Source of the DNA: a virus
Reading direction: 5' to 3' (one strand)
Length of the DNA stretch: 43,912 bases
Virus record (IMG/VR): IMGVR_UViG_3300043438_001982
Location: 1-43,912 of that record
Under the pieces are notes generated by a model. It did no database searches and was not told where the DNA came from. It worked only from the letters and a program-made list of their open reading frames with translations. The number at the start of each line of letters is the position of its first letter. Within the stretch, counting starts at the first letter, position 1. This document shows, one piece after another, positions 4,203 through 29,859 of this stretch. A program made the position numbers and the translations under genes.

Positions 4203-7200
4203 ATGGCAACAGCACAAGCAAATCAAAAAGTTTTTGTATCACCTGGAGTATACACGTCTGAAACGGACTTATCTTTCGTAGCACAGAGTGTGGGGGTTAC
4301 AACCTTAGGGTTAGTAGGGGAAACACTTAAAGGTCCTGCCTTTGAACCTGTTTTTATAACTAACTACGACGAGTTCCAAGCATACTTTGGAGGAACCGAA
4401 CCAACTAAATTTATCAATACACAAATTCCAAAATACGAAGCGGCCTATATCGCTAAGTCATATTTACAACAATCTAACCAATTGTTTGTGACAAGAGTGT
4501 TAGGTTTGTCGGGATATGATGCGGGTCCATCTTGGAGTATTAGAGTTACTGCCAATGTTGACCCACTAACTATTGGTCTTATTGCACCAACAGGTGGAAC
4601 AGTGTTTACTGCAACATTTACAGGAGCATCTTCAGCGAGTACAGTATCGTTTGTTACTGCATTACCAACGGATATCCAAAACAATTTAAACGTAGAATAT
4701 AGATTATCTGATGGTAGTACTTCTACTTACCAACAAGATTTCAATGCTAACTTAAGTGAAATTATTGACGACACAACTTTATCTGCAACGACAGTCGCTT
4801 TCTATGGTTCAATACCTTCACCTGATTATTGGAATTTAGTAAGTCAGTATTCTAACCAACTTAACGTATTTGGTTCTGAAAGTAATAACTTAGACACTAA
4901 CGATTTAAGTTCAGATGCTAACGACCCTTGGTATTATGCAACATTCACTAATGACCCTGATTTAGGAAATGATTATGAAGGTTATTCGTTCTACTATAAT
5001 GTATCTTCATTAACTAATAATAATGACGGTACTTTCACAGGTCAGATAACAGGTGAAGTTTTTAGTTTCACAGGAACTGCTTATAGCGAATACAACAACA
5101 TGGTTGTTGCTACATTACGTTCAAGAGGTATCTCATTATATTCTACAAACGCAGAACTTAATCAACACGGACCTGTTTATGAGGTTGGTATTAATTATAC
5201 AACTGGAGCTTTTGAACCAAACAATGTTCAATTAATTGCAACAGGTCAATATTCAGGGGTGACTAATTTACCTTATGAAGGTTTCTTACTTTCAGGTGTT
5301 ACTAAAGACGGTGATAGTTTCTCATTTGAAACATCTCTATCTGCTGCTTCTCCTAAGTATTTAACTAAAGTATTAGGTATTGATAACTTTGGTAAGGCAA
5401 GAAACGAAGTTCCTGTATTTGTTGAGGAGATTTATCCTGGTTCTTTGAATTATGCTTACAACCAAGGATATATTAAAGGTATTAATCCTGAGTTAGTAGC
5501 GTTAGATGATGCTAGAAGTCAAAACACTCAGTCAATCGCTTATAAAGTTGAAAAATATCAATCACCTGAAACTCCGTTCTTAGTATCTGAGTTAAGAGGT
5601 AATAAAGTATTCAGATTATTTAAATTCATCTCAATATCTGACGGTGATGCGGCTAACGTTGAAATCAAAATTTCAATCGCTAACCTATCATTTAATAACA
5701 TGACATTTGATGTGTTAGTAAGAAACTTCTTTGATACAGATTCAAACCCTGTAGTTATCGAAAAATTCACTAACTGTAATATGGACCCTAACTCTAACAA
5801 CTTCGTTGCTAAGAAAATTGGTTCATCAAACGGTGAATACGCATTAATCTCTAAATTTATAATGGTTGAATTATCTGATGAGGCTCCTATCGACGCAATT
5901 CCTTGTGGATTCTACGGATACACTCAAAGAGAATATGAGTCAACTGCGAATATTTCACCAGTACCTAAATTTAAAACTAAATATTATTTCCCAGGTGAGG
6001 TTGTTTTAAACCCTCCATTTGGAACAAGTGCAAATGCAACTGAATCTGCGGGTGATATTGTAAGAAGAGCTTACTTAGGATTCTCAAGTCAATTTGGTAT
6101 TGATGAATCATTCTTAACTTATAAAGGTAGACAAAATCCATCAAATTGGGTTGGTTCAGCATTACCTATCGACGGTCTTGCTTGGAATTACTTAAGTAAA
6201 GGATTCCATATGGACTCAGGTGCAACTGTGGTTACAATCGCAAACTCTTTCCAAACAAGTGGTCAAACTGCTTTTGAATGTGGAGTTGCTGATTTTAGAA
6301 CAGACCCTGAAAGTCAAGAAAACCCTTACTACTTCATCTACTCAAGAAAATATACATTATGTTTTGCTGGAGGATTTGACGGATGGGATGTTTATAGAGA
6401 GTTTAGAACTAACCAAGACAGATTCCAATTAGGTTCTAACGGTTACTTAGCAGGTACATCACCTTCATCAAGATACCCAACGGCAAACGGTGAAGGATTA
6501 TTCAAGAGAATTATTGTACAAAACAATACTCAGGATTTTGCAAACACTGATTACTACGCATACTTACTTGGTATCTTAACATTCTCTAACCCTGAAGCTA
6601 CAAACATTAACGTGTTTGCAACTACAGCAATCGATTATTTTAACAACTCAAACTTAGTTGAGGAAGCAATTGAAATGGTACAGTTCCAAAGAGCTGACTC
6701 TGTTTACATTGCAACAACTCCTGACTACTTAATGTATACACCAGATGGTACAAATCCTCAAGATATCATCTACCCACAAGAGGCGGTTGATAACTTAGAT
6801 AACACAGGAATTGACTCTAACTACACGGCAACCTACTACCCATGGATTTTAGTAAGAGATACTGTAAACAATACACAAATCTACTTACCTCCAACAGGTG
6901 AAGTTTGTAGAAACTTAGCGTTAACAGATAACATTGCATTCCCATGGTTCGCATCAGCGGGTTACACAAGAGGTCTTGTGAACTCAATTAAGGCGAGAAC
7001 TAAGTTGACTCAAGAAGATAGAGACACATTATACCAAGGTAGAATTAACCCTATCGCAACCTTCTCTGATGTAGGAACTGTAATTTGGGGTAACAAAACG
7101 TTACAAGTTGCTGACACAGCACTTAACAGATTGAACGTAAGAAGATTATTACTTCAAGCTCGTAAGTTGATTTCAGCGGTAGCGGTAAGATTATTGTTCG

Positions 7201-7436
7201 AACAAAACGACCAAATCGTTAGACAACAATTCTTAGACAGTGTTAACCCAATCTTAGATTCAATTAGAAGAGACAGAGGTTTATACGACTTCCGTGTAAC
7301 AGTTTCTTCAACACCTGAAGACTTAGACAGAAACACATTAGTAGGTAAAATCTACTTAAAACCAACGAAAGCGTTAGAATTCATCGACATTGAATTCTTC
7401 ATTACTCCGACAGGAGCTTCGTTCGAGAATATTTAA
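4203..7436 (+). CDS. 18: Tail sheath protein, gp18-like
   Basis: 1077 aa contractile sheath subunit. The N-terminus VFVSPGVYTSETDLSF is the classic sheath opening, and the C-terminus (last ~180 residues) has the conserved sheath core ending in LDRNTLVGKIYLKPTKALEF and IDIEFFITPTGASFENI, which forms the handshake strands and the inner tube-facing domain. A middle segment near residue 520 (EKFTNCNMDPNSNNFVAKKIG) also matches gp18-type sheaths. T4 gp18 is about 659 aa, so roughly 400 residues are extra. Most of the excess lies between residues ~120 and 450 and looks like Ser/Thr/Asn-rich surface beta domains. The gene starts a transcription unit preceded by a TATTTAT motif, and a GC hairpin follows the stop. 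Confidence 0.95.
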   Translation: MATAQANQKVFVSPGVYTSETDLSFVAQSVGVTTLGLVGETLKGPAFEPVFITNYDEFQAYFGGTEPTKFINTQIPKYEAAYIAKSYLQQSNQLFVTRVLGLSGYDAGPSWSIRVTANVDPLTIGLIAPTGGTVFTATFTGASSASTVSFVTALPTDIQNNLNVEYRLSDGSTSTYQQDFNANLSEIIDDTTLSATTVAFYGSIPSPDYWNLVSQYSNQLNVFGSESNNLDTNDLSSDANDPWYYATFTNDPDLGNDYEGYSFYYNVSSLTNNNDGTFTGQITGEVFSFTGTAYSEYNNMVVATLRSRGISLYSTNAELNQHGPVYEVGINYTTGAFEPNNVQLIATGQYSGVTNLPYEGFLLSGVTKDGDSFSFETSLSAASPKYLTKVLGIDNFGKARNEVPVFVEEIYPGSLNYAYNQGYIKGINPELVALDDARSQNTQSIAYKVEKYQSPETPFLVSELRGNKVFRLFKFISISDGDAANVEIKISIANLSFNNMTFDVLVRNFFDTDSNPVVIEKFTNCNMDPNSNNFVAKKIGSSNGEYALISKFIMVELSDEAPIDAIPCGFYGYTQREYESTANISPVPKFKTKYYFPGEVVLNPPFGTSANATESAGDIVRRAYLGFSSQFGIDESFLTYKGRQNPSNWVGSALPIDGLAWNYLSKGFHMDSGATVVTIANSFQTSGQTAFECGVADFRTDPESQENPYYFIYSRKYTLCFAGGFDGWDVYREFRTNQDRFQLGSNGYLAGTSPSSRYPTANGEGLFKRIIVQNNTQDFANTDYYAYLLGILTFSNPEATNINVFATTAIDYFNNSNLVEEAIEMVQFQRADSVYIATTPDYLMYTPDGTNPQDIIYPQEAVDNLDNTGIDSNYTATYYPWILVRDTVNNTQIYLPPTGEVCRNLALTDNIAFPWFASAGYTRGLVNSIKARTKLTQEDRDTLYQGRINPIATFSDVGTVIWGNKTLQVADTALNRLNVRRLLLQARKLISAVAVRLLFEQNDQIVRQQFLDSVNPILDSIRRDRGLYDFRVTVSSTPEDLDRNTLVGKIYLKPTKALEFIDIEFFITPTGASFENI

Positions 7437-7472: not shown

Positions 7473-8300
7473 ATGAGAAAAAAATTAACAGAAGGATTTA
7501 AAGGTGAAGGTACACCAGACATGAAATATTATGCGTTTGATTGGGACGATAATATTGTTCACATGCCAACAAAGATAATTGTCAAAAGTGAAGACGGGGA
7601 GGAGATTGGAATGTCGACTGACGATTTTGCGGAACACAGACATCATTTAGGTAAAGAACCTTTTGAATATAAAGGTGAGACTATTGTAGGTTATGGTGAT
7701 AAACCATTTAGAAATTTTAAAACTGAAGGCGATAAGGATTTTATAATCGATTCGATGAGGGCTAAAGAAGGTCCAGCATTCAACGATTTTAGAGAGGCAA
7801 TCAATAACGGGTCGATTTTTTCTATAATCACCGCGAGAGGTCACAACCCAAACACGCTGAAACAAGCGGTTTATAATTACATCATAAATGATTATAATGG
7901 TATTAGTAAAGATGAGTTAGTTAAAAACCTTAAAAAATACAGAACGTTTGTGGACGAAGACGATATGAGTGATGAAGAATTAATCAAAACTTATTTAAAC
8001 CTCAACAAATACCATCCAGTTTCGTTCGGAGATGAGGCGGGGGCGGTGAATCCTGAAGAAGCCAAGGTAGAAGCAATGGAAGAGTTTGTAACTTATATTA
8101 GAGGACTTGCATCAACTTTAAATAAGAAAGCTTTTTTAAAGAATGATATTAATAATAATTTTATTCCTAGTGAGCCATCTATAGGCTTTTCAGATGATGA
8201 CCCTAAGAATATAGAAGTAATGAAAAAACATTTTAAAGATAAACCAGATAATATAGTAAGAACTTATTCTACAGCTGGAGGCACTAAAAAGGAAGTCTAG
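7473..8300 (+). CDS. HAD-superfamily phosphatase-like protein
   Basis: 275 aa. HAD hydrolases use an aspartate nucleophile to remove phosphate from small molecules, proteins or nucleic-acid ends. Seen: motif I FDWDDNI, with Asp23 (nucleophile) and Asp25; motif II as SIITARG at about residue 115-121; and an acidic motif IV as IGFSDDDPKNIEVMKKHF at about residue 238-255. The DWDDN form replaces the usual DxDxT/V. A long cap-like insertion sits between motifs I and II. It lies between the sheath and tube genes, where T4 has nothing. Possible roles are DNA/RNA 3'-phosphatase (as in T4 Pnk), nucleotide phosphatase, or virion-associated enzyme; none can be chosen from the sequence. The fold call is good and the substrate unknown. 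Confidence 0.8.
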   Translation: MRKKLTEGFKGEGTPDMKYYAFDWDDNIVHMPTKIIVKSEDGEEIGMSTDDFAEHRHHLGKEPFEYKGETIVGYGDKPFRNFKTEGDKDFIIDSMRAKEGPAFNDFREAINNGSIFSIITARGHNPNTLKQAVYNYIINDYNGISKDELVKNLKKYRTFVDEDDMSDEELIKTYLNLNKYHPVSFGDEAGAVNPEEAKVEAMEEFVTYIRGLASTLNKKAFLKNDINNNFIPSEPSIGFSDDDPKNIEVMKKHFKDKPDNIVRTYSTAGGTKKEV

Positions 8301-8396: not shown

Positions 8397-8885
8397 ATGG
8401 CTGATTTACTGATGAAAATGCCGATTCCTTATGAACCGAAGAGACAAAATCGATTCATTTTAAGGTTTCCATCAAGTTTAGGTATTAACGAATGGTTTGT
8501 AGAAAGTACTTCTAGACCACACATTACAATAGCTGCGACTGAAATTCCATTCCTGAACACTTCAACTTATGTTGCGGGTAGATTCAACTGGCAAACAATT
8601 AACGTGACCTTCAGAGACCCAATTGGACCGTCAGCGGCACAGGCTCTTATGGAGTGGGTTCGTTTACACGCCGAGTCAGTAACAGGTCGTATGGGATACG
8701 CCGCAGGTTATAAAAAAGACATCGACCTTGAGATGTTGGACCCAACAGGTGTTGTTGTTGAGAAATGGATTATGTATGGTACATTCTTAACAGATGTTAA
8801 CTTCAACGCGTTATCTTATTCACAAGATGCTTTAGCAACAATCTCAGCAACGTTGAGAATGGATAGATGTGTGTTAGTTTACTAA
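8397..8885 (+). CDS. 19: Tail tube protein, gp19-like
   Basis: 162 aa, essentially the T4 gp19 length (163 aa). It forms the hexameric rings of the rigid inner tube. The sequence follows the gp19 family layout: PYEPKRQNRFILRFPSSLG at the N-terminus, a RPHITIAATEIPFLNT strand pair, VTFRDPIGPSAAQALMEWVRLH, then TDVNFNALSYSQDALATISATLR and a hydrophobic C-terminal strand. It has its own TATTTAT motif upstream and a hairpin terminator downstream, as expected for a gene needing high late expression. Confidence 0.95.
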   Translation: MADLLMKMPIPYEPKRQNRFILRFPSSLGINEWFVESTSRPHITIAATEIPFLNTSTYVAGRFNWQTINVTFRDPIGPSAAQALMEWVRLHAESVTGRMGYAAGYKKDIDLEMLDPTGVVVEKWIMYGTFLTDVNFNALSYSQDALATISATLRMDRCVLVY

Positions 8886-8959: not shown

Positions 8960-9703
8960 ATGGATAATCAATCAAGAGAATACGGACAAGCGAATTTTTC
9001 ACTTCCCCATGACGTGGTACCATTACCATCTCAAGGTACATTCTACAAAAACAAAAAGAAATCACTTAAAGTCGGATATCTGACAGCAACTGATGAGAAC
9101 TTATTAATGGCGGGTGGTGACGATATGACACCAAATCTTTTAAGAACAAAGATTTATGAACCAGACTTACGTGTTGAAGACATGTTGGAAGGTGATGTTG
9201 AGGCGGTCTTAATTTTCTTAAGGAACACCGCATTCGGTCCTGAAATGGAACTTACTCTAACTGACCCCACAACAAGAAAACCGTTCAAGACAACAGTCTT
9301 ATTAGACCAACTGTCGATACTTCAAGGACAGACACCTAATGAGGATGGTACATTTACGGTTTCATTACCAAAGTCACAATCAACGGTTAAATTAAAACCA
9401 ATGACTTATGGTGAAATCTTAGAAAATCAAAAAGCATCTGACTATTATCCTGCGGGACGAATAGTACCTAAAGTCACATTAAGACTTCAAAAAGAAATAA
9501 TTGAAGTTGACGGAACTACCGATAAGGGCGAAATCGCCAAATTTATAGAATCTATGCCAATTGCGGATTCAAAATTCATCCGTAAGTTTATGGAAGAGAA
9601 TGAACCACGATTGGATATGAAACGAGTTGTTATGACCCCATCAGGAGAAAAACTTACAGTTAATGTAGGTTTCGGGGTCGACTTTTTTCGTCCTTTCTTC
9701 TGA
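8960..9703 (+). CDS. 26: gp26-like baseplate hub / tail assembly chaperone (frame-0 product)
   Basis: 247 aa. Resembles the T4 gp26 family: an N-terminal PLPSQGTFYKNKKKSLKVGYLTATDENLL segment, an acidic helical region with AVLIFLRNTAFGPEMELTLTDP, and a C-terminal strand ending VNVGFGVDFF. T4 gp26 also ends in a DFF segment. The gene sits between the tube and the tape measure, which is where phages encode the G/GT-type tail assembly chaperones. The frame-0 stop is TGA at 9701-9703, but a conserved-looking extension continues in the +1 frame to 9842 (separate entry). The terminator at 8921-8957 abuts the ATG. The family call rests on motif and synteny. Confidence 0.75.
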   Translation: MDNQSREYGQANFSLPHDVVPLPSQGTFYKNKKKSLKVGYLTATDENLLMAGGDDMTPNLLRTKIYEPDLRVEDMLEGDVEAVLIFLRNTAFGPEMELTLTDPTTRKPFKTTVLLDQLSILQGQTPNEDGTFTVSLPKSQSTVKLKPMTYGEILENQKASDYYPAGRIVPKVTLRLQKEIIEVDGTTDKGEIAKFIESMPIADSKFIRKFMEENEPRLDMKRVVMTPSGEKLTVNVGFGVDFFRPFF

Positions 9704-9842
9704 TTATAGGAAAAGTCAGCTAGACGAGTTCTACTACTTAAACACATTATTAAAGATAACTTATCAAGATTTTTTAATAATGCCGTTGTTCGCAAGAAAG
9801 TATCTTTTAGATAAATGGATTGAAGATAATAAAAAGGACTGA
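9690..9842 (+). CDS. +1-frame C-terminal extension of gp26-like protein (GT/gp51-like)
   Basis: The +1 frame is open from 9669 to the TGA at 9842 with no ATG, GTG or TTG in its first half; the only ATG is near 9780. It encodes VLSSDYRKSQLDEFYYLNT, then LLKITYQDFLIMPLFARKY and LLDKWIEDNKKD. Aromatic spacing followed by a MP..R..L helix is the pattern of gp26 C-terminal extensions and GT-type tail chaperones as I know them. It is most simply reached by a +1 slip at GAC TTT TTT CGT (9680-9691): tRNA-Phe on TTT 9686 moves to TTC 9687, giving a 293-aa fusion. The alternative is a one-base error or transcriptional slippage in the T6 tract, since loss of one T would also fuse the frames. There is no plausible independent start. 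Confidence 0.7.
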   Translation, partial: VLSSDYRKSQLDEFYYLNTLLKITYQDFLIMPLFARKYLLDKWIEDNKKD

Positions 9843-9887: not shown

Positions 9888-11735
9888 ATGGCAGAAACTA
9901 ATAACCAAAGTGCTGGTCAAATGGGTGAAGAATTGAAGAACGCGGTTAAACTACCCAACGCTCAAGAATTTGCAGACGCCTTTGAACGAGTAAGTTCTGT
10001 TGCCCGAGAGGTTAATAATCTCTTTGGACAAAGTAGAGAAAGAATTGTTGAGTTAAAAACTGAGATAGTTAACTCTCTACCTGGTATTGCTAGATTGGGA
10101 GGAGATGTTGGTGCAGTAGGAGAGACCATTCAATCAATGGCAACCGCCGCTAGACGAAACGTTGTTGAAAACGCTGCGGATGTTGAAAAACTTTACGCCG
10201 CTTCAAAAGTTTTAGGAGCAACTGTGGGAGAAATATCTGAAGGGTTTTTAAATGTTGGGGTTGGATTCGAACAGATGGGTAAACAACTCGAAGATTCGGT
10301 CAACTATGTTAGAAGTATTGGAGGTAACACTAAACAAGTTATGGATAGTGTTAGGGCCAACATGGACCAAATGAACAGATACCAATTTGAAGGTGGAGTT
10401 CAAGGGTTAACCAAAATGGCGGCACAAGCATCGATGTTGAGATTCGACATGGGTGAAACATTCAGATTGGCGGATAAGGTGTTAACTCCTGAAGGTGCGA
10501 TTGAAACCGCAGCAGCGTTCCAAAGATTAGGAGTATCAGCAGGGGCATTAGCCGACCCATTTGCATTAATGAATCAATCTATTAACGACCCACAAGGTCT
10601 GCAGAATAGTTTGGTTGATGTTGCAAAACAATTTAGTTACTTCGACGAAAAAACCAAAACTTTTAAAATTAGTCCACAAGGAGTTTTAACTCTTAAAGAG
10701 ATGGAAACTCAGACAGGGGTTAGTGCCAAAGAGATGAGTAAACTAGCCGTTGCCGCAGCTGAGGCAGATAAAAGAGTTTCAGCAATCGGTTCTGCGGGTT
10801 TAAACATTAAAGAAGAAGACAAACAATACGTTGCCAACATTGCCAGAATGGGTGAAGGTGGTGAATACGAAGTTAAAATTAATGATGATGAAACTAAAAA
10901 GTTATCTGAACTTACCCAAGATGAATTTGACAAATTAATCAAAGAACAAAAAGAAGGTCCTAAAACAATGGAAGAGATTGCAAAATCTCAAATGTCTATT
11001 TCTGATGCAATTAAAGGTGATGTTGAAGCCATTAGAGCTGCGATTGTTGGAGGTACAGTAACACAAAAAGATTTCTTAAGAGGTGCCGAATCAGTTAGAA
11101 ATGTTTCTACCGCAGTTACAGGTGCGGCATCAAAAAATTTCAGTTCACCTGAAAAAGTAAGAAGTACATTGACAGAATCGTTTGGTGATATAAAACAGTT
11201 ATTTAAAGATATTAATAATAAAGACATTAAAACAACTGATGCGATGTCTGATTACTTAACTAAACTTGGTAATCAAGGAGTTAAGATTCAAGATGGACTT
11301 AAAGAAAGTCTTATGAAAACTTTAGAAGAAAGTCGAGGTAAAATTGGGGATGATACCTCTATTGATAAGGCGGCAAAAGAATTTTTAGATTCGATGATTG
11401 GAAGTGCTAAATCAGGTAAAATTCAGGGTACAGACAAAGGAAACATGCCAGTGTCTTCATTAATTGAAGGTACTAAGTCTACTCAAGTTAAAGAAGCTGC
11501 ATCAAAAGGAGGAGCTTTCGGTGGTTCTACCTCAAAGGTTAATGTGGATGGAGGTTTCAAAATTGACATTAATTTTACGGGAATTGCTGGGGATTTAACA
11601 CCAGCACAAAAAGAACAAATAACTAAGGTACTTGTTGACAAAATGAACACAACTGAAATGAAACAATATATGGTTAGTGTCAATACTAAAGATAACCCAA
11701 CAAAGGCACCTACAGGAAAAGTGTTAGGGTCTTAA
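9888..11735 (+). CDS. 29: Tail tape measure protein (gp29 position)
   Basis: 615 aa, close to T4 gp29 (590 aa). At about 0.15 nm per residue this predicts a tail near 92 nm. The protein is Ala/Lys/Glu/Gln-rich and largely helical, with long heptad-like stretches (ADAFERVSSVAREVNNLFGQSRERIVELKTE), a Gly-containing central region (FLNVGVGFEQMG), and a C-terminal Ser/Gly/Lys-rich section ending in a short beta-like domain. I see no clear transmembrane helix, although many tape measures have one. It directly follows the chaperone gene with the +1-frame extension, the usual partner that coats the tape measure before tube polymerisation. Assigned by composition, length and order. Confidence 0.8.
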   Translation: MAETNNQSAGQMGEELKNAVKLPNAQEFADAFERVSSVAREVNNLFGQSRERIVELKTEIVNSLPGIARLGGDVGAVGETIQSMATAARRNVVENAADVEKLYAASKVLGATVGEISEGFLNVGVGFEQMGKQLEDSVNYVRSIGGNTKQVMDSVRANMDQMNRYQFEGGVQGLTKMAAQASMLRFDMGETFRLADKVLTPEGAIETAAAFQRLGVSAGALADPFALMNQSINDPQGLQNSLVDVAKQFSYFDEKTKTFKISPQGVLTLKEMETQTGVSAKEMSKLAVAAAEADKRVSAIGSAGLNIKEEDKQYVANIARMGEGGEYEVKINDDETKKLSELTQDEFDKLIKEQKEGPKTMEEIAKSQMSISDAIKGDVEAIRAAIVGGTVTQKDFLRGAESVRNVSTAVTGAASKNFSSPEKVRSTLTESFGDIKQLFKDINNKDIKTTDAMSDYLTKLGNQGVKIQDGLKESLMKTLEESRGKIGDDTSIDKAAKEFLDSMIGSAKSGKIQGTDKGNMPVSSLIEGTKSTQVKEAASKGGAFGGSTSKVNVDGGFKIDINFTGIAGDLTPAQKEQITKVLVDKMNTTEMKQYMVSVNTKDNPTKAPTGKVLGS

Positions 11736-16782: not shown

Positions 16783-17105
16783 TGGCATTTCAATATTGGA
16801 ACCGATACAGTGATTTTTTAATAAACGGAGAACAAACAGTTGTCCCATATGTTAGCTTGCCTCAAAAATCAACTGACAAGGCTTACATATATAAAGTCGC
16901 TCAAAGTAGATTAGATAAGGTGTCTCAAGAGTACTATAACTCGCCAACATTTAATTGGTTAATACTTCAGGCTAATCCACAATTTGGAGGGCTCGAAAAC
17001 AATATATATGATGGGGCTATATTGATTATTCCGTTTCCATTACTACCATCTCTACAGGATTATAAAGCGGCGTTAGAAAATCATTTTTATTATTATGGTA
17101 GGTAA
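16782..17105 (+). CDS. 53: gp53-like baseplate protein with LysM-like fold
   Basis: 107 aa. Pattern: an N-terminal FQYWNRYSDFLING, then DKVSQEYYNSPTFNWLILQANPQ and DGAILIIPFPLLPSLQDY. The helix / WLILQAN / G..L.IP series is the LysM-like form shared by T4 gp53 and short contractile-injection baseplate proteins, which clamp the wedge to the central hub. It is shorter than T4 gp53 (196 aa). It overlaps the upstream giant by 1 base and the downstream hub giant by 11, so the three are translationally coupled. LysM here is more likely a protein-protein module than a sugar binder. Family resemblance is moderate and context is strong. Confidence 0.6.
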   Translation: MAFQYWNRYSDFLINGEQTVVPYVSLPQKSTDKAYIYKVAQSRLDKVSQEYYNSPTFNWLILQANPQFGGLENNIYDGAILIIPFPLLPSLQDYKAALENHFYYYGR

Positions 17106-20100
17106 TTTAGGACCAGACAATAGTGGGAGAATATATGTTGAGTTCGATTACAATAACCTTATTGTAGTTGACCCCAACAAAACTATTGATGCGGTAGGGA
17201 ATATTAGAGAAAGATTAGTCGACCATGAAAACTTGGTAATGTACGCTAATCTTGAAGCAGATGTACTACCAAGAACCAAACTTGCGGTTGGTATAAGTCC
17301 TGAAGATAGTGGACTTACAACTATCTCGGTGGCTAAGATGAATTTTCTTAAACCAACAAAAAACAGTTATTTAGGTTCAGGATATTACGATGAACTAACA
17401 GGTAATAATGTTACCAAGTTTGACGGAACTAATCAACCTGCACAACTTGGACAACAAACAAGTAACGGTGCCAAGCCTTATATTCAAAACACGGTAGCTA
17501 ACGAATTAAACGTTATGGATAACGGACTGTTAGGTATTACTAGTATTAACATTACAACAAACACTTCATTTATACCATCGGTAACAATGGTTTTAGAAGA
17601 TGTACAAGGTAAAGCGTTATTCCAATTAGGAAATAACTCACCATATTCTGCATTCTTTAACCTACCTTATCCACCATTCTATTTAACACTTAAAGGTTTT
17701 TATGGACAAGCGGTAAGATACCAACTTAACTTAGAAAAATTCCATGCGTCGTTTAATGGAACAAGTGGAAACTATCAAGTTAATCTAACATTTAAAGGTT
17801 ATAAGTTTAATATATTAAACGAAATTGCCATGGGACATTTGGTTGCAACACCACACATGTATTCCCAAAGATTTAATTTTGGAGTAACACCTGTAACACC
17901 ACAACAATCCAACAAAGCCAACGAATCACAATCTAAAACTCAAGGAGCTCTTGGAGCTAATAATCCAAATAGTAGTGACGCGGTTGTTACCGAATTAGTA
18001 ACCGAAAGAGGTTATCAAAAAATTGTTGAAGTTTATAGTGAATACAAAGCCAAAGGATTAATTGCTCCTGAATTACCTGAACTTACATTAGTCCAATTAA
18101 TGAATAAGTTAGAGACTTTTGAGCAAAATATTATGGACTCTTTTGATAAGGCTGAGGTTGAATCTTTAACTAACATTAAAAATTACAAAGGTATTCTTAC
18201 TCAGTATTTTACAAATGTTAGAGGAGGACAAAGTTCATGGTTTAATATACATCTAAATCCACAACCTCTTATTTTATTAAATGGTGAAAAAGTTTACAAA
18301 TTTAAAAATGTTGACGAGGGGGCAAAGACAACCGCAATTTCATTACTAAAAGGAAATATTACAGAATATAATAATGCGTTAGCTGCAAATCCAACATTGG
18401 GTAGTAAGGGTAAATCACCAATACCGAACCCAATTAAGTACGATTTAATGCTTAAAGACAATTTAATTGAATCTCAAATTGATTGGAAGGCAACTACAAT
18501 TGCTCAAACAGGAAATCCAGACCCAACAAAAGAAACCATTGATAAAGTTATTAGTTCATATGGTTTCAGTAAGACATTAAATGTAACTGAAGTAAATGGT
18601 AAAAAAAGTTACACTGAAAACAAAGAGCCTTATTATGTCTTCGAAGGTGATGGAAGATTTGATGCAACTATTTCATCTTTAGAAACACAAGCAAATAAAA
18701 AGTTGTCGGAATATGAAGCAATTATAACTGCGGAATTACTAAGAAAAATTGAGGATAAGGATAAAGGTATTGGATTTAAACCTACAGTCAGAAATATTGT
18801 TGCTGTTATCATGGCATCCGCAGAAGCCTTCGTTAGATTACTTGATGATGTTCACACTAAAGCTTGGGATGTGAAATACGACCCTGTCAGAAAAGCGGCT
18901 ATTTTGGAAAACCCATCTTCAGCTCCAAGTTCTGAAACGGTTGATAATGTTGTTTACGCTTCAGGGTCTTTATTAGGTAATACTGATGCAGAAAATGCTC
19001 AAATTCCTGTATACCCATGGCCACAATTTTTTGAAGAAAGTGTTGAAGATAAGAAAGGAAGATTCCAATTAAAATACATTGCGGACCCAAGTGTTGTTGG
19101 AAAAACCCAAGGTAATAATTATGCTAAATGGCCCGAGGTAGAATTTGTTGAGGAGTATATGAAAGGACTTACTCAAAAATTTCAAAACCCTTTGGCTCCC
19201 GCACCTGTTGAAAACCAAAGAGTTACTAATAGTATTAATATAAACGCTATTGAATTTCCATCTTTAGGGATTGCGTATGCTAATAAAGAAGAAATTAAGT
19301 TTTTCTATGAAATATGGGAAAGACAATTTTTAACGTCACACTATTCAGGATTAGTTAGGGCTAATTTAAATCAAATAAATGATTTATTAAAACTTAACAT
19401 AGAAACTGAAGTTAATAATATCAAAGATAGTTTAGGAGTGAGTAGCCCATACATAACCTTCAAATTAAAAAATTACGGATTCAATTCAACTAGCTACCCT
19501 GTATTCTTAAATAATATCTCAAACATGGGAACGGGTAGAGCATACCAAGATTACATTAGAGATTTCTTTGTGACACCGTACATTAGAGCGTTAACAGAGA
19601 ATCCGTTTAGTATTTTAAAAACTAGTGACCTTGGTAAAATACCACAAGTTACTACAACATCAGATGCTTTAAGAGCGTTAATTACTAACGCATCTAACGA
19701 ACCATTAGTTGTTGATACATTACCATATACTGACACAACGTGGAATTTAAATAATTTAAATCAAAGTGCAACCGCTGCGGGTAATCAAGTTTATGACACC
19801 AAAAAAAGTTTGACAATCTTTGAACCAAGAAAGATAATATCAAACTTTACAGACATCTACAACTATAAAACGAATAGACCTGTAACCAATTTTTCATATC
19901 TATTATCTCAAAATCCAACAATTATTGCCGCGTTGGTAGGTATAGGTTCGTTTGGAGGTTCAATCCCTGGACTAACAACATTTTATCCGTTAAGAACTCC
20001 TGAAAATTTTGCAGCAACTGAAGGGTACTGTAATGGTGTTACACCTACAGGATTTTTAGGACCAAGAACAACGACCTCAATGTTAAACACACCGTACTTT

Positions 20101-23100
20101 ATAAATGCGATTCAAAGTGGTGTGGTTAATTTTAAAAACAAAGAAACGTACCCTTACGTTCAAGCGGCATATCTATTCCTAAATTCGTTACCATTAGCAA
20201 CATTAAGAGAGAAGTATAAAACTGTATCAGATAATAATCCACCAACTGACTTGGACTACATTGCGTCTTGTTTTAATAAATTTGGTGCGATACACAAAAT
20301 ACCTTACGCTTGGATTTTAAAATATGGTTCGATTTACCATAGATACAAAAAATTCAAAGAAAGTGGTGTAGACATTCTTACAAATGTTTGGAAAGATTTT
20401 GATTATACAAACAATTATAATCCAATCACTAATCAAACAACAACACAATACACGTTTAAATACTTAAAGGAGGTTGACAACACAAATATTACATTACAAA
20501 CCGAAACTAATGACGATGTTAATATGCAAATAGGGTTTTACCCTAAGTTAATTAACGACTTCAATGTATTCTATAATGGGTATGATTTATATAGCGGATA
20601 CACCAATACAGAAATTCAAGAAAGTGTTGATGGTGGAATGAAGGTCTATAATTATTTTGGGTCCAATATTCTTTCAGGAAAACAAGGGGATAAAAATTTA
20701 AGATTAAAGACATGGTCTGTATTGTTACCTGATTTAACTCCTGAAGCTGAGGCTAATTGCGACCCCAAAAATAACACCAAAAATACGGACTATCTTGTTG
20801 TACCATCGTTTGGTACATCTTTTAATCAAGCCAAAGAATCATGTTTAACGGGTAGTACCACTTCAATAGGAACCAAAATTAATCTTACTTCTAATAGTAG
20901 TGTGTATAATGGTTCTGTTAGAAGTCTATGGGCAGCACCTAATTATGGGTATTTTGATTCAACACAAATCGCATATCCACAACCTGACTCGTACCTGACT
21001 CGTATAGTTACAGGTACAACTGAAGAACAATCTCCTGTTCACTTTTTGAATACCGACCAATACTCAAAAATTGAAGAGATGTTTTCGGTATTTGATAAAA
21101 AGGTATTAGAGTCTTTTGAGGTGGAGTTTTTAAATTTTTGTAAACCAATAACTAATGCGGATAACGGTGGAGAAGTTTTAACTTACGGACAGAGCCCTGT
21201 TAATATCAATTCCAACTTTAGAAATTTCCAATCATTATTTAAAACATTAATGACAGTACCTAAACAAGTTGATGGCACGGGAGAAAATAACTATTTTGAT
21301 ATAGTAATCCAAAAACAATGGGAAGTATTCCAATCAGGTGTAAAATCATTTATGGAATACGATATGATTATAAGAAATGGTAATCCTTCAAATTATAATA
21401 GAAGGATATTCGATTCTTATTTATCATTTAATGCATCACCTGAAGTAATAGACCCAATCACATTTAATCCTTATGTTAGAGGTAGTTTACCTACAAGAGG
21501 AGGGGGAGTTACGTTAACTCAATCTAAACTTGCTAATAGACAAGCGTGGTTTGCTTTAGAGACCGAAGTAGGGTTTTCAACAATATTTAATGTTGCATAT
21601 AGTTCAAATGGTTCATATATAACTGACTTCTTTGTTGACAATAATATTGAGTTTACTGCTCAGAATGTTGTATTACTGGCTAAGATAATTAAAATGTATG
21701 CGACACAAAAACTTAGACAACCAACAATATCAGTTGCTCAATTTAAAAATCAAATTACACAATATCTTAATAGAGAGTCCGAATTACAAAACAATTTCTT
21801 AGACGGAGTTCTGACAGGATTGAACAGAGCGTTACCATCACAACAACAACTACCTCAACAACAACCAATCCAAAGTTCTATTTCAGGAGAACAGAGTAAA
21901 GTTGAAAACTATGAAGTTTTCAAGGCGTTAAACGACAAGTGGGTTGCGGGTGGTGATTACACAAACAAAACATTGTTTGAAGATATGATGTTTTTAGATA
22001 GAGCGTCAAGAAATATTGGAGACACAATCTTAGTTGATATTTTTGATTTGAAAGCCATGTTTGGTGTTGGTGGTACTCCTGGTGAATATTCGTTAAATCA
22101 AGCTATGAGTGTTTATACCTTTATTAGTGGTATTCTTATTAAGAATAATTTTAACGTAATGAATTTACCTGCATATGTTAACTTCTATAATGTTCAAGAT
22201 GTTGATGGAACTACAACTCCAAGAACTGAAGGCTCGTTAGATTTTGCGGACAGTTTATGGGGAACCTATTTAGATGTTGATTATAGAAAGTCAGGGCCTA
22301 AAATGGTTTGTTTCTACGCAGGTAAACCATCTCAATATTTAGACCTACCAAAAGGTAATTTCAAATTTAGAAATGACGGGTTTGAAATGAGAAGAGCTTC
22401 GGAAAATCCTTTATTGGAAGACCAAAAAGATAAAAAAGATTGGGCGGTTTCTAATAAATGTGTTGGGTTTACCGTAGATTTAGGTATTAGAAATCAAAAC
22501 ATATTTTATTCGTTTAGTGTATCACAAGATAATGGTACTGCAACTTCTGAGTCGATTAATACTCAGTTGAATATGGTAGACCAAGCCTCAGGTAGACAGA
22601 CCGCAACTCAAAATAATAGTTTATATAATTTATACAAACAAAGAAGTTATAAGTGTTCGGTAACATCTTTAGGTAATGCGTTGATACAACCAACAATGTA
22701 TTTCAATCTTAGACACGTACCAATGTTTAATGGACCGTACATGATACAAGATGTACAACATACAATTCAAGCGGGTAATTTTCAAACAACATTTACAGGT
22801 GTTAGACAGGGGGTATTTGATTTACCAGCGATAGATAGTTTCCTACAAAGTATAAACCAAAACCTTGTTACTAAGTTAGAAGAGTTACTTAAAATTAATA
22901 AAGATAGTATTACTGTTACTGGAACCACAAATACAGTTAAAAGTAATAAGTTACCGCAAAAGGCAGATAACACATTGGACACTACAAATGCTTGTAGTTC
23001 AAATGTACTTAAGACTTACTCAGACGCTGCGTTTGGAGATAGTGTTGTTGGTACCGCGACACCATTAACACCACAACAATTGGCAGACGCTTTAGTAAAA

Positions 23101-24855
23101 GAGATGCCAAACAATAAGGAATTACAGGTTATCATTTATTGTATGTCCTATATGAGAAGTTTCCAAAAAAGTTCAAATAGTAGTGTTGGTGAATTCAATG
23201 GATGGAACAATAACTTTGCAACAATATCTTTAGATACCAATTGGGGAGGATTAATTACAACATTAACTAAGAGATATAGTTGTATTAAATCTAAAACAAA
23301 TCCAACCACATCTGCATCACTACCTATTGTACATTTTGATAATGTCGAAAAATATGTGAGATTTATGCAAGGAAGGTTAGGACCAAGGGTTAAACAAATA
23401 TTAGAAATTGGTTTAGCTAAATATTATGTTTGTTTTTGGCCAGAATCCAACATCTCTTCAGATTACTACGATTCACACACAAGTGAATTTAAACAAACTA
23501 AAGATACCCTATATGCAGCATTAACCTCTGCGGTTAAAGTAGGACTATCAAGTTTAGAAAATTCTAAAGATTTAAAGGCTGACATTAAAGTAACTGAACA
23601 AAAAGGTATTAAGAAAACAAGTGGTACTTCAGGTACTTCAGGTACTTCAGGTACTTCAGGAACGAGAGGAACAAGTGGTGTTGCTGCTTTAGACTTATCA
23701 TGCCCTCCACCAGCAATTAAATCATTCTCACCATTAGCGGGATATGATGGAACGATAGTTCAAATAAATGGTAGTAACTTGGGAACCACAAACTCAATTA
23801 AATTGGCTGGAGTAGAAGTTCCATCAAAAGATATTACGGTATTTAGTGGTAGTACTGTTAGGTTTATTGTCCCTAAAATCTTAAATGGAGAAACTAACCT
23901 TAATGGAAGAATTGAAGTTAAAACAGATAATGGTTCATTTACAGGGTCTACGTTATTTAATTATAACCCTGCATTAAAAGGAGTTTCAAGTTTATCACCT
24001 GGAGGTGCCACAGATACACCTGTAACACAAACAGCACCTTCAACTCCAAGTCCAAATAATTTAACAGGAACAAATGCAAATCTACAAGATACGGCTCCAA
24101 GTCCTCTTATTCAAACAGAAAAAACATCAAGTGAGTTAGGTAATGGAATTTTAACGGTTAAAGTTAATACTGAGCCAGGTGTTGGTGTTTGGAACATAGA
24201 TGACCAGCCAAGGTACAATTATAGGATTGATGCGATAGAAATTGGACCGAACAACACGGTTAAACGATACACGCCAAGCGAAGGTACATATCAAGCGCTT
24301 GAAGGATTCGTGTCACCTGATGGTCAAACATTCTCAATAACAAGAGAAGCGTTTATTGATAAAGCGTTTGAACAGGATATTGAAATGGAGGATGGAAATA
24401 GACTTGAAATTAGTACAACAATTGAATTGTATGCTAGACCTGCGGATAAAGTAAAATACCCAAATGATTTTATAAGAAATTATAATTTTAGAATTGTTGT
24501 TCCATCTACAGGTAATACTGTACAACCCGAGGGTTCATTAGTCTCCATACAAAGAAGTGAAGACGTTGATTTACCTGACTATAATGGTAAACAATATTAC
24601 AATATAAAAAGACCTGATGGTGGGTACATTACTTATAACTTCAGTTGTTCTCGTTGTGTAATAACTAAAGTTGAGGTTGTTAAGTCAAACGAACAAACAT
24701 CGGTACAAAACATAACAATAACCAATACTCCTGATACCAAATATACAAACGTTATCGATGTGAAAAACTCAGGAAGATTTGTTTTATCTGTAACTTATAA
24801 TAATGCGGACGTGCCAGGAACATTTACAGCAAAGAGTGAACCTTTCACTTTATAA
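17095..24855 (+). CDS. 2586-aa baseplate hub giant (gp27/gp5-like hub plus accessory domains)
   Basis: The longest gene here. Residues ~145-245 (LLGITSINITTNTSFIPSV ... PPFYLTLKGFYGQAVRYQLNLEKF) and ~1862-1925 (MYFNLRHVPMFNGPYMIQDVQ ... FTGVRQGVFDLPAID) look like the two halves of a gp27/gpD-type hub, with very long insertions between. Residues ~1965-2165 contain PQQLADALVKEM, a helical segment and FNGWNNNFATISLDTNWGG, a layout like phage glucosaminidase/lysozyme domains, so a cell-wall hydrolase analogous to the T4 gp5 lysozyme is possible but unproven. A GTS-repeat linker follows (residues ~2177-2195), then an IPT/TIG Ig domain (~2202-2295, SFSPLAGYDGTIVQINGSNLG) and a C-terminal beta-rich region. 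It overlaps the gp53-like gene by 11 bases. No independent lysozyme-hub gene is present in the window. Confidence 0.65.
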   Translation: MVGNLGPDNSGRIYVEFDYNNLIVVDPNKTIDAVGNIRERLVDHENLVMYANLEADVLPRTKLAVGISPEDSGLTTISVAKMNFLKPTKNSYLGSGYYDELTGNNVTKFDGTNQPAQLGQQTSNGAKPYIQNTVANELNVMDNGLLGITSINITTNTSFIPSVTMVLEDVQGKALFQLGNNSPYSAFFNLPYPPFYLTLKGFYGQAVRYQLNLEKFHASFNGTSGNYQVNLTFKGYKFNILNEIAMGHLVATPHMYSQRFNFGVTPVTPQQSNKANESQSKTQGALGANNPNSSDAVVTELVTERGYQKIVEVYSEYKAKGLIAPELPELTLVQLMNKLETFEQNIMDSFDKAEVESLTNIKNYKGILTQYFTNVRGGQSSWFNIHLNPQPLILLNGEKVYKFKNVDEGAKTTAISLLKGNITEYNNALAANPTLGSKGKSPIPNPIKYDLMLKDNLIESQIDWKATTIAQTGNPDPTKETIDKVISSYGFSKTLNVTEVNGKKSYTENKEPYYVFEGDGRFDATISSLETQANKKLSEYEAIITAELLRKIEDKDKGIGFKPTVRNIVAVIMASAEAFVRLLDDVHTKAWDVKYDPVRKAAILENPSSAPSSETVDNVVYASGSLLGNTDAENAQIPVYPWPQFFEESVEDKKGRFQLKYIADPSVVGKTQGNNYAKWPEVEFVEEYMKGLTQKFQNPLAPAPVENQRVTNSININAIEFPSLGIAYANKEEIKFFYEIWERQFLTSHYSGLVRANLNQINDLLKLNIETEVNNIKDSLGVSSPYITFKLKNYGFNSTSYPVFLNNISNMGTGRAYQDYIRDFFVTPYIRALTENPFSILKTSDLGKIPQVTTTSDALRALITNASNEPLVVDTLPYTDTTWNLNNLNQSATAAGNQVYDTKKSLTIFEPRKIISNFTDIYNYKTNRPVTNFSYLLSQNPTIIAALVGIGSFGGSIPGLTTFYPLRTPENFAATEGYCNGVTPTGFLGPRTTTSMLNTPYFINAIQSGVVNFKNKETYPYVQAAYLFLNSLPLATLREKYKTVSDNNPPTDLDYIASCFNKFGAIHKIPYAWILKYGSIYHRYKKFKESGVDILTNVWKDFDYTNNYNPITNQTTTQYTFKYLKEVDNTNITLQTETNDDVNMQIGFYPKLINDFNVFYNGYDLYSGYTNTEIQESVDGGMKVYNYFGSNILSGKQGDKNLRLKTWSVLLPDLTPEAEANCDPKNNTKNTDYLVVPSFGTSFNQAKESCLTGSTTSIGTKINLTSNSSVYNGSVRSLWAAPNYGYFDSTQIAYPQPDSYLTRIVTGTTEEQSPVHFLNTDQYSKIEEMFSVFDKKVLESFEVEFLNFCKPITNADNGGEVLTYGQSPVNINSNFRNFQSLFKTLMTVPKQVDGTGENNYFDIVIQKQWEVFQSGVKSFMEYDMIIRNGNPSNYNRRIFDSYLSFNASPEVIDPITFNPYVRGSLPTRGGGVTLTQSKLANRQAWFALETEVGFSTIFNVAYSSNGSYITDFFVDNNIEFTAQNVVLLAKIIKMYATQKLRQPTISVAQFKNQITQYLNRESELQNNFLDGVLTGLNRALPSQQQLPQQQPIQSSISGEQSKVENYEVFKALNDKWVAGGDYTNKTLFEDMMFLDRASRNIGDTILVDIFDLKAMFGVGGTPGEYSLNQAMSVYTFISGILIKNNFNVMNLPAYVNFYNVQDVDGTTTPRTEGSLDFADSLWGTYLDVDYRKSGPKMVCFYAGKPSQYLDLPKGNFKFRNDGFEMRRASENPLLEDQKDKKDWAVSNKCVGFTVDLGIRNQNIFYSFSVSQDNGTATSESINTQLNMVDQASGRQTATQNNSLYNLYKQRSYKCSVTSLGNALIQPTMYFNLRHVPMFNGPYMIQDVQHTIQAGNFQTTFTGVRQGVFDLPAIDSFLQSINQNLVTKLEELLKINKDSITVTGTTNTVKSNKLPQKADNTLDTTNACSSNVLKTYSDAAFGDSVVGTATPLTPQQLADALVKEMPNNKELQVIIYCMSYMRSFQKSSNSSVGEFNGWNNNFATISLDTNWGGLITTLTKRYSCIKSKTNPTTSASLPIVHFDNVEKYVRFMQGRLGPRVKQILEIGLAKYYVCFWPESNISSDYYDSHTSEFKQTKDTLYAALTSAVKVGLSSLENSKDLKADIKVTEQKGIKKTSGTSGTSGTSGTSGTRGTSGVAALDLSCPPPAIKSFSPLAGYDGTIVQINGSNLGTTNSIKLAGVEVPSKDITVFSGSTVRFIVPKILNGETNLNGRIEVKTDNGSFTGSTLFNYNPALKGVSSLSPGGATDTPVTQTAPSTPSPNNLTGTNANLQDTAPSPLIQTEKTSSELGNGILTVKVNTEPGVGVWNIDDQPRYNYRIDAIEIGPNNTVKRYTPSEGTYQALEGFVSPDGQTFSITREAFIDKAFEQDIEMEDGNRLEISTTIELYARPADKVKYPNDFIRNYNFRIVVPSTGNTVQPEGSLVSIQRSEDVDLPDYNGKQYYNIKRPDGGYITYNFSCSRCVITKVEVVKSNEQTSVQNITITNTPDTKYTNVIDVKNSGRFVLSVTYNNADVPGTFTAKSEPFTL
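23623..23658 (+). repeat. 9-nt tandem repeat GGTACTTCA x4 (Gly-Thr-Ser linker)
   Basis: Four perfect in-frame copies inside the hub giant, encoding GTSGTSGTSGTS and followed by the degenerate GTRGTSG. It separates the possible wall-hydrolase region from the TIG domain. Unit loss or gain by slippage would change linker length without changing frame. Confidence 0.9.
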
Positions 24856-28129: not shown

Positions 28130-29122
28130 GTGATTAAGACATTATTAGTAGACGGAGACAATCTGTTTAAAATAGGATTTCACGGAGTTAGAGAGATGTA
28201 TGATAACGGAGACCACTTAGGTGGAATCTATCACTTCATCAACATCTTAAGACGGTTTCTAGAAGAGCACAACTTGGATAAGGTTGTGGTCTTTTGGGAC
28301 GGTGATTCGAACTCATCAATTAGGAAATCTATATACCCCCAATATAAGGCGAATAGAAGGCAGGACATGAACGAGTACAAGTACGAGTCATACCTCCAAC
28401 AAAAATCTCGAGTTAAACAATATCTCGAGGAGATATTCGTACGCCAAGTTGAGATGATTAACAACGAGGCTGATGACTTAATTGCTCACTACTGTAAAGT
28501 TGCAACGGATGAAGACGTAATAATATTCTCAGCCGACAAAGACTTAACTCAACTCATATCTGAAAAAGTTACCATATATTCTCCAATCTCAAAACAGTAT
28601 TTTAAGAATGGGGATATGATAACAATCAATAAGGTTGAGATACCACATTATAACGTTTTACTTACCAAAGTTTTCACAGGAGACAAGTCCGACAATATCG
28701 ATGGTATTGAAGGATTAGGGGAAAAAACTTTAGTAAAATTCTTCCCTGATTTGCTGGGAAAACCATGCATTATGGACGAATTACTCGATAATGCACGAAA
28801 TAACCAGCAGAAGAAAAAACCAAAAGCCCTTGAGAATATTTTGACTGGTAAGACAAAAAATGGTATACTTGGTGAAGAGTTCTACAACACAAACATGAAG
28901 ATTGTAGACCTTGGGAACCCACTTATTACCGATGAAGGTAAAGAACTTGTCGAACAAATATATACAGACACAATTGACCCTACAGACAGAGGGTACAAAA
29001 ACTTAATGAGACTTATGATGGAAGACGGTCTCTTCAAATATCTTCCAAAAAACGATGAAGCTTGGGTAAACTTCCTAAGACCATTTATGAAATTAACAAG
29101 AAAAGAAAAACGAAAGAAATGA
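28130..29122 (+). CDS. rnh: 5'-3' exonuclease / flap endonuclease, T4 RNase H type
   Basis: 330 aa (T4 Rnh 305). Removes RNA primers and flaps from lagging-strand DNA. FEN/PIN-domain motifs: LLVDGDNLFKIGF at the N-terminus (first metal Asp), VVFWDGDSNSSIRKSIYPQYKANR (~49-72), MINNEADDLIAHY (~108-120), SADKDLTQLI (~135-144), and GDKSDNIDGIEGLGEKTLVKFF (~185-206), which is the H3TH DNA-binding motif. The start is GTG at 28130; no in-frame ATG precedes the conserved VDGDN. The GTG lies in a small hairpin (AATCAC-acca-GTGATT). The TGA overlaps the ATG of the oxygenase gene as ATGA, so these two are coupled. Confidence 0.93.
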   Translation: MIKTLLVDGDNLFKIGFHGVREMYDNGDHLGGIYHFINILRRFLEEHNLDKVVVFWDGDSNSSIRKSIYPQYKANRRQDMNEYKYESYLQQKSRVKQYLEEIFVRQVEMINNEADDLIAHYCKVATDEDVIIFSADKDLTQLISEKVTIYSPISKQYFKNGDMITINKVEIPHYNVLLTKVFTGDKSDNIDGIEGLGEKTLVKFFPDLLGKPCIMDELLDNARNNQQKKKPKALENILTGKTKNGILGEEFYNTNMKIVDLGNPLITDEGKELVEQIYTDTIDPTDRGYKNLMRLMMEDGLFKYLPKNDEAWVNFLRPFMKLTRKEKRKK

Positions 29123-29859
29123 TAGACTATACTTTATCTGACAAACTAAAAATTCAATATCAAACTGCGAAACCTTTTCCGTATATTGTGATTGATAATT
29201 TTCTACCCGAGTTTTTACTAAAAAGTTGTTTAGAAGAAATTAAAAAACACAAAAAATGGTTTTCTAATGGGGAAGAATGGGTTGAAGAATTTGAGAAAAA
29301 CAAACTATATTATCCGTCAGAGAATACGGATATGGAAGAATTTAAAAATTTTCTTCCTATCACTAATATGGTTACAGATTATATGAACTCTGAACCATTT
29401 ATTAAATTTTTGGAGAATTTAACAGGGTTCGAAAAATTATATAGAGACCCTGTTATGATGGGAGGAGGAATACATAAGATAAATAAAGGAGGTAAGTTAT
29501 CCATTCACATTGACTATAACCAACACCCTAACCAAAAATGGAAACGTAACTTAAACGTACTACTTTATTTAAATGAAAATTGGGTAAAAGAATGGGGAGG
29601 TAATTTAGAACTATGGGGAGGAGAACCTTGGAAGAAAGAAATAGAGGTAGAACCAATATTCAACAGAGCAGTTATTTTCTCTATTGAAGATGCGCCTCAT
29701 GGACATCCAATACCATTAAACACACCTGATGATGTGTCAAGATATTCATTAGCACTTTATTATTTTACTGACGAAGAAGTAAAAGACAAACACTCAGTTA
29801 TCTTCTATAGAGATGAAGAATTGGGAATAAATGAAACAGATAACTTATTTAAATTTTAA
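29119..29859 (+). CDS. 2-oxoglutarate/Fe(II)-dependent dioxygenase (prolyl-hydroxylase type)
   Basis: 246 aa from ATG 29119, which overlaps the nuclease stop as ATGA; the frame is open 19 codons upstream to a TTG but the overlap start is preferred. Double-stranded beta-helix motifs are complete: HxD as His130-Ile-Asp132 (SIHIDYNQHP), a distal His at 194 or 196 (APHGHPIP), and Arg208 for 2-oxoglutarate (SRYSLALYYF). NLNVLLYLNENW followed by GGNLELW is the prolyl-4-hydroxylase signature (2OG-FeII_Oxy_3 type). The substrate is unknown: it could be a residue on a phage or host protein, or a base or sugar. T4-like cyanophages carry related enzymes. Sitting between nuclease and helicase genes, it may act during replication. 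Confidence 0.88.
   Translation: MIDYTLSDKLKIQYQTAKPFPYIVIDNFLPEFLLKSCLEEIKKHKKWFSNGEEWVEEFEKNKLYYPSENTDMEEFKNFLPITNMVTDYMNSEPFIKFLENLTGFEKLYRDPVMMGGGIHKINKGGKLSIHIDYNQHPNQKWKRNLNVLLYLNENWVKEWGGNLELWGGEPWKKEIEVEPIFNRAVIFSIEDAPHGHPIPLNTPDDVSRYSLALYYFTDEEVKDKHSVIFYRDEELGINETDNLFKF

Follow-up and report, generated by a model that had tools for sequence, protein, structure and literature searches.

The stretch analysed here, which we call the window, is the whole of an AT-rich record of an uncultivated virus, 43,912 bp long. At positions 8960-9842 it carries a gene of the T4 gp26/gp51 family from a freshwater T4-like phage. Comparison with related sequences indicates that this gene is very probably read with a +1 programmed frameshift, yielding a short tail assembly chaperone (TAC), TAC-N, of 247 amino acids and a long one, TAC-NC, of 293 amino acids. 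The features of the locus are listed below.

8960-9703, plus strand: zero-frame open reading frame (ORF), the short form TAC-N, 247 amino acids; putative tail assembly chaperone of the T4 gp26 family (PF12322, phrog_150, AlphaFold/BFVD)
9635-9678, plus strand: conserved RNA hairpin 5' of the slip site (covariation, tree count, sliding scan)
9683-9691, plus strand: candidate slip site TTT_TTT_CGT (peptidyl (P)-site TTT in 120/120 sequences, aminoacyl (A)-site CGN, synonymous-conservation peak at codons 242-247)
9687-9842, plus strand: +1-frame extension, TAC-C, which would add 50 amino acids after F243 (ratio of nonsynonymous to synonymous rates (dN/dS) 0.05, three-helix model, profile homology)
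9701-9703, plus strand: zero-frame stop TGA (TGA or TAA in relatives, either of which leaves the +1 frame open)

The zero-frame ORF ends in GTC GAC TTT TTT CGT CCT TTC TTC TGA, with a run of six T (T6) at 9683-9688. The +1 frame follows a TAG at 9666-9668 and is open from 9669 up to a TGA at 9840-9842. Reading across the slip, join(8960..9688,9690..9842), does yield 293 amino acids, as expected from the 247- and 293-residue forms proposed in a first-pass annotation of this DNA, whose positions for the ORF end, the T6 run and the +1 opening proved exact to the base on re-reading. That annotation also saw no usable start in the first half of the +1 frame, and the earliest ATG, GTG or TTG we found there is the ATG at 9780. 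The sequence TTTTTTCG is not rare in this AT-rich DNA (2 sites compared with 4.5 expected), so the motif by itself would not make the case; conservation does.

To examine conservation, we searched IMG/VR with the 247-residue protein and kept the best 80 of 413 matching stretches, which are 75-100% identical to it over TAC-N. The gene is complete to its zero-frame end in 79 of them, one of which lies on a contig that ends within the extension. All 79 combine a zero-frame stop with an open +1 extension that runs 46-47 codons beyond it, and their tract reads TTTTTTCG[TC]CCTTTCTTCT; the A-site codon, which was not fixed by the search, is CGY in 79/79. The split frame and slip site are thus kept throughout the close relatives, and a tract of five T or a continuous ORF was seen in no relative. 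In every complete relative the -1 frame is itself closed 3-16 codons beyond the zero-frame stop, which led us to reject a -1 frameshift of the X_XXY_YYZ type (as in lambda G/GT and dnaX). Past the zero-frame stop, 37 distinct extensions gave a dN of 0.137, a dS of 2.7 and a dN/dS of 0.05 in the +1 frame, compared with 0.92 and 1.84 in the other two frames of the same DNA; the extension is held as strictly as the TAC-N body (dN/dS 0.11). Among 50 distinct genes, synonymous conservation was maximal at codons 242-247, which comprise the slip and the overlap, and the protein is conserved directly from the slip point (FVLSS[DN]YR). These comparisons indicate that the split frame is neither a chance arrangement nor a sequencing error.

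It is highly improbable that the extension is made separately, by internal initiation or by re-initiation at a stop-start junction, or that it is untranslated. The dN/dS of 0.05 rules out the last of these. Separate translation has precedents among the relatives: L094 and L099 encode the extension as an ORF apart, whose ATG lies 2-5 nucleotides past the stop, and cyanophage extensions also have an ATG near the stop. A separate-start solution therefore exists in the family, and the L094 and L099 lineages have replaced frameshifting by stop-start or separate translation. The window and its clade differ, however, in that the +1 frame of the window has no ATG, GTG or TTG before 9780, the first 17 codons after the slip contain no start in any window-clade member aligned, and the upstream ATG at 9663 runs straight into the TAG in the window phage. 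The conserved residues, moreover, begin at the slip point itself. An independent start codon in relatives had been named in the first-pass annotation as a finding that would speak against frameshifting; no close relative has one ahead of the well-conserved part of the extension.

To characterize the slip site further, we scanned IMG/VR with a degenerate pattern, V-[DE]-F-F-R-P-F-F-stop, that admitted both Phe codons and every CGN. Each of the 120 hits was the same chaperone gene, again with a +1 extension of this kind. In the P site, the Phe codon was TTT in 120/120, compared with a TTT:TTC ratio of 1045:287 elsewhere in these ORFs, and the A-site codon, restricted to CGN by the pattern, was CGG in 51, CGC in 38, CGT in 30 and CGA in 1. 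The exit (E)-site codon was UUU, or UUC in two hits; these two (2/120) carry TTC_TTT_CGC, without the T6 run, which shows that the run is dispensable. Arg244 was invariably CGT or CGC in the 50-gene set, although AGA is the phage's commonest Arg codon (per 1000 codons in the window: AGA 26.9, CGT 2.6, CGC 0.2 and CGG 0.1). As a group, CGN codons rank with the rarest in the window. Together, the fixed P-site TTT and the dispensable T6 run speak for re-pairing from UUU to UUC and against transcriptional slippage, a homopolymer error or a -2 shift. The comparative evidence thus supports the movement of tRNA-Phe from TTT to TTC at TTT_CGT that had first been proposed from the window.

The same annotation had offered two alternatives, transcriptional slippage on T6, which would produce mRNAs one U short, and an indel in the assembly. 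The T6 run is present and loss of one T does fuse the frames, but the tract has the same length in dozens of independent assemblies. Two window-clade relatives have TTC_TTT_CGC, in which the T run is too short, yet show the same +1 arrangement, and the BRock-type phages, GXN1 and LR756508 keep this arrangement with only three T at the site. Furthermore, the site is constrained at its second TTT and its CGN codon, neither of which slippage would call for. We regard either explanation as having very little chance of being correct.

Just upstream of the slip site lies a hairpin at 9635-9678, composed of an outer helix (9635-9639/9674-9678), an inner helix (9650-9658/9664-9672) and a loop (9659-9663), with its 3' end 4 nucleotides before the T6 slippery tract. 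It is kept in all of about 125 relatives, and in 125 distinct sequences the outer helix pairs A/G-CCCC with GGGG-U/C. Standard pairs fill 86% of cells in these 125 sequences, compared with 77% after shuffling (maximum 78%) and at most 58% in slid registers. On a tree made from the rest of the gene, changes from one pair to another fell on 30 branches at the true register and on 1-6 at slid registers. In two sequences a Gly codon has changed from GGG to GGT and the partner Ala codon from GCC to GCA; the C-G pair has thus been replaced by A-U, and neither change alters the protein. Covariation of the same sign was found in a smaller sequence set, and a sliding scan of the gene returned this hairpin as the sole strong consensus fold (-7.95, compared with a mean of -0.17 and a standard deviation of 1.0). 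The first-pass annotation, whose site and direction of shift are supported, had missed this element. The GGGG might instead act as a Shine-Dalgarno-like sequence that pairs with rRNA, a candidate that we rejected because the compensatory GGT/GCA change favours a hairpin within the same mRNA. We found no conserved fold 3' of the slip. The bulge of the hairpin contains TCAGGAGA (9641-9648), which varies hardly at all, less than coding alone would explain, and is the complement of TCTTCTGA (9696-9703); a pseudoknot between the two was rejected, as the sequences are invariant, show no covariation, and the pairing is broken in relatives with a TAA stop.

On 70S ribosomes, a hairpin adjoining the E site acts like an internal Shine-Dalgarno duplex: +1 shifting increases and -1 shifting decreases (PMC6321510). 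We therefore read the hairpin at 9635-9678 as most likely a stimulator of the +1 shift. Streptomyces phages of the BRock type (L132, L220-L235) have a CCCAC...GTGGG hairpin 7 nucleotides ahead of UUU_CGN or UUU_CAG. In this GC-rich group of phages it may be an upstream stimulator of independent origin; the 11 distinct sequences show one-sided changes only.

A -2 frameshift within U6, as in phage Mu, would enter the same frame, and in the window UUU can re-pair two bases back without a mismatch. The same movement creates mismatches in TTC_TTT_CGC, GXN1 (TTC_TTT_CGT), BRock (CTG_TTT_CGC) and LR756508 (AAC_TTT_CTA), whereas +1 movement onto UUC is perfect, and a hairpin adjoining the E site favours forward movement. 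A -2 shift is accordingly very unlikely. The two shifts predict different junction peptides: VDFFFVLSSDYR (DFFF-VLSS) for -2 and VDFFVLSSDYR (DFF-VLSS) for +1.

The short form belongs to a known family. The 247-residue protein matched PF12322 (T4_baseplate) at 9e-7 (29.2 bits; cut-off 24.5) and phrog_150 with an E value of 4e-11. TAC-N and the extension were modelled as two separate halves. The AlphaFold model of the 247-residue form (predicted local distance difference test (pLDDT) 87) matched an SP-15 baseplate hub subunit (1.9e-17), a CP220 protein (5.6e-9) and Aeromonas phage 25 gp26 (1.9e-5) in BFVD, and had no fold match in the PDB. The extension was modelled as a compact three-helix domain (pLDDT 91.6). 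T4 gp26 (208 amino acids) and gp51 (249 amino acids) both match PF12322 over the full length of the profile, and gp51 has about 48 additional C-terminal residues, covered by phrog_150 positions beyond 235. It follows that gp26 represents the short form, and gp51 the long form, of a single family. T4 does have two separate genes, as the first-pass annotation had said, but their kinship as short and long forms had gone unnoticed there.

Profile comparisons, controlled with 60 column shuffles, connect the extensions to one another and to gp51. Pooled +1 extensions matched pooled -1 extensions with an hhalign score of 33.7 (E 1.5e-6; shuffles at most 14.9) and the gp51 C terminus with a score of 27.1 (E 5e-5; shuffles at most 15.2). 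Positions 227-282 of phrog_150 match the shifted-frame ORFs of P-SSM2 (1.4e-10), S-PM2, phiM12 and HTVC008M.

Outside the window clade, about 190 further loci have a +1-frame extension with the same motif. At their sites the base that follows UUU (or CUU/CUA preceded by UUU) is C or U, or A in LIS04; the loci include an L084 type. The arrangements in the family are as follows.

Window clade: +1, UUU_CGN
Immuto clade, including an isolated Flavobacterium phage: +1, UUU_CUU_UGG or UUU_UUU_UGG
Mel-JY01 clade: +1, UUU_UGG
BRock clade, Streptomyces phages: +1, UUU_CGN or UUU_CAG
SP-15: +1, UUU_CAC
Streptococcus GXN1: +1, UUC_UUU_CGU
LIS04: +1, UUU_AGU
LR756508: +1, UUU_CUA
P-SSM2 and its 80 IMG/VR relatives, S-PM2, S-CAM9 and KVP40: -1, U_UUU_UUC, U_UUU_UUU or U_UUU_UUA
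phiM12, phiW-14, HTVC008M, Atu_ph07, Vibrio 2.275, PHA46 and XacN1: -1, U_UUU_UUC, U_UUU_UUU or U_UUU_UUA
T4 and Campylobacter CP220: two full genes

In both directions the position of the shift is identical, at the Phe-Phe end of the short form. We lean towards the view that the direction switched between -1 (U_UUU_UUC) and +1 (UUU_UUU_CGN or UUU_UUU_UGG) at the same Phe-Phe, that T4 took the path of gene duplication instead, and that a natural hairpin behind the E site drives +1 shifting at UUU_CGN on bacterial ribosomes.

Several of these loci are annotated in other ways. The gp26 gene of the cyanophage/KVP40 type (L113, L114, L136, L316-L395, L117, L118) overlaps a short ORF, 'gp51', that lies in the -1 frame past U_UUU_UUC; in the clade consensus a GGAGGG stands about 9-10 nucleotides ahead of the heptamer, a dnaX-like arrangement. 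In S-CAM9 the two parts are annotated as separate genes. In immuto, SP-15 and LIS04 (L127 2830-2940; L129 2809-2928; L131) the +1 extension is annotated with a short hypothetical ORF that lies within it or with nothing, and a frameshift is annotated in none of these isolated phages.

Four observations weigh against a hairpin-stimulated +1 shift in a chaperone gene. First, dual coding should account for part of the nucleotide conservation 3' of the slip. Second, the window-clade extension alone did not match the gp51 C terminus significantly (score 16.8; shuffles up to 16.0); this clade by itself is too uniform to reach gp51, and it is linked to gp51 via Mel-JY01-type extensions (E 8.6e-9; immuto/Mel-JY01 clades). 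Third, we found no conserved upstream hairpin in the immuto or Mel-JY01 +1 clades, so such a hairpin is not a general requirement; nor did we find one in the cyanophage clade. Fourth, the gene at 9888-11735 is a probable tape measure gene, assigned by position and size.

A +1 shift at 9683-9691 could proceed as follows. Most ribosomes would terminate at 9701-9703 and release TAC-N (247 amino acids). A minority would pause while the rare Arg codon CGU occupies the A site and UUU (9686-9688) the P site; peptidyl-tRNA-Phe would then re-pair one base forward, from UUU at 9686-9688 to UUC at 9687-9689. Decoding would resume in the +1 frame, with GUC (9690) as the next codon, and yield TAC-NC (293 amino acids). 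Behind the ribosome, the hairpin at 9635-9678 most likely refolds once it has been cleared and would favour the forward shift, much like the internal Shine-Dalgarno duplex of RF2 (prfB). As with G and GT of lambda, TAC-N would be expected to coat the tape measure protein, and TAC-NC to recruit tail tube subunits through its helical C-terminal domain.

The genes around the chaperone locus include other tail genes.

4203-7436, plus strand: tail sheath protein (phrog_23 7.5e-57, PF17482)
8397-8885, plus strand: tail tube protein, gp19-like (phrog_4542 1e-26)
9888-11735, plus strand: probable tape measure protein gene, 615 amino acids (position and length only)

For the last of these, the gene order matches that in Flavobacterium phage immuto; its product had no family match in Pfam or PHROGs and no BLASTP similarity to the immuto tape measure protein. 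Between the sheath and tube genes, 7473-8300 encodes a 275-residue ORF with a HAD-phosphatase-like start (FDWDDNIVHMP) and no match in Pfam or PHROGs; the product labelled P0002 had no match in these two databases either. A 2,586-residue baseplate-region protein at 17095-24855 contains the GTSGTSGTSGTSG repeat and a TIG-like domain. Amid the replication genes, a 2OG-Fe(II) oxygenase gene at 29062-29859 (PF13640, 5e-18) overlaps the 3' end of a 5'-3' exonuclease-like gene.

The chaperones of T4 provide the closest comparison. T4 gp26 and gp51 are of the same family (PF12322/phrog_150), and the long form equals the short form plus a C-terminal domain of about 48 amino acids; T4 and Campylobacter CP220 have two separate genes, whereas the window phage has one gene and a probable +1 shift. 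Vladimirov, Gautam and Davidson reportedly described TAC-N and TAC-NC in T4-like phages in 2022, encoded separately in T4, and are said to have noted frameshifting in some T4-like groups. In cyanophages, KVP40 and jumbo phages, gp26 and 'gp51' represent the same gene with a homologous extension and an overlap at the same Phe-Phe end, but the extension is in the -1 frame behind U_UUU_UUC-type heptamers. The T4-type family would have three ways (a +1 shift, a -1 shift and two genes) of making much of a short form and little of a long one, and recoding can be studied in it as in a natural experiment. In current annotations of these phages the long chaperone is absent or split, for example in immuto, SP-15, S-CAM9 and LIS04.

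Lambda G/GT and P2 E/E+E' encode a short and a long chaperone in one gene adjoining the tape measure gene, as is probable for the window gene, but they use -1 tandem slippage. G-T frameshifting has been described as widely conserved 'except T4', and one archaeal myovirus was thought to use +1 (PMC5009743); another article (PMC12846349) cites -1 poly-T slippery sites for T4-like chaperones, with the 2022 study as their source. In the open-licence literature we found no report of a +1 UUU_CGN site, a natural 5' hairpin or a switch of direction in the gp26/gp51 family. Frameshifting in chaperone genes is known as such; what appears to be new in T4-type phages is the combination of a +1 UUU_CGN site and a natural 5' hairpin.

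The nearest parallels to the slip site itself come from eukaryotic viruses. UCC_UUU_CGU of influenza PA-X is a proven +1 site, and a preference for CGN has been noted in related eukaryotic viruses (PMC3498833). Influenza A PA-X, the amalgaviruses and chronic bee paralysis virus (PMC3498833) share with the window a P-site UUU_C, an A-site CGN and a +1 shift. They differ in using eukaryotic ribosomes, in the E-site UCC of PA-X and in having no known stimulatory structure, whereas the window site would be read by bacterial ribosomes and has a 5' hairpin. We rejected membership of the PA-X site family because the E-site UCC is absent (UUU, or UUC in two sequences); the window site would work like the PA-X sites and belongs to a different family. 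The UUU_CGN +1 class, so far from eukaryotic viruses only, would here act on bacterial ribosomes. With prfB (RF2) the window would share +1 re-pairing of the P-site tRNA and the help of a duplex immediately 5' of the E site; it differs in having an mRNA hairpin and the rare sense codon CGT in the A site. Engineered E-site hairpins stimulate +1 shifting on 70S ribosomes (Huang, Cho and Chang 2018, PMC6321510), whereas the hairpin in the window is natural and covarying, and it would be a natural case of a stimulator otherwise known mainly from engineered constructs.
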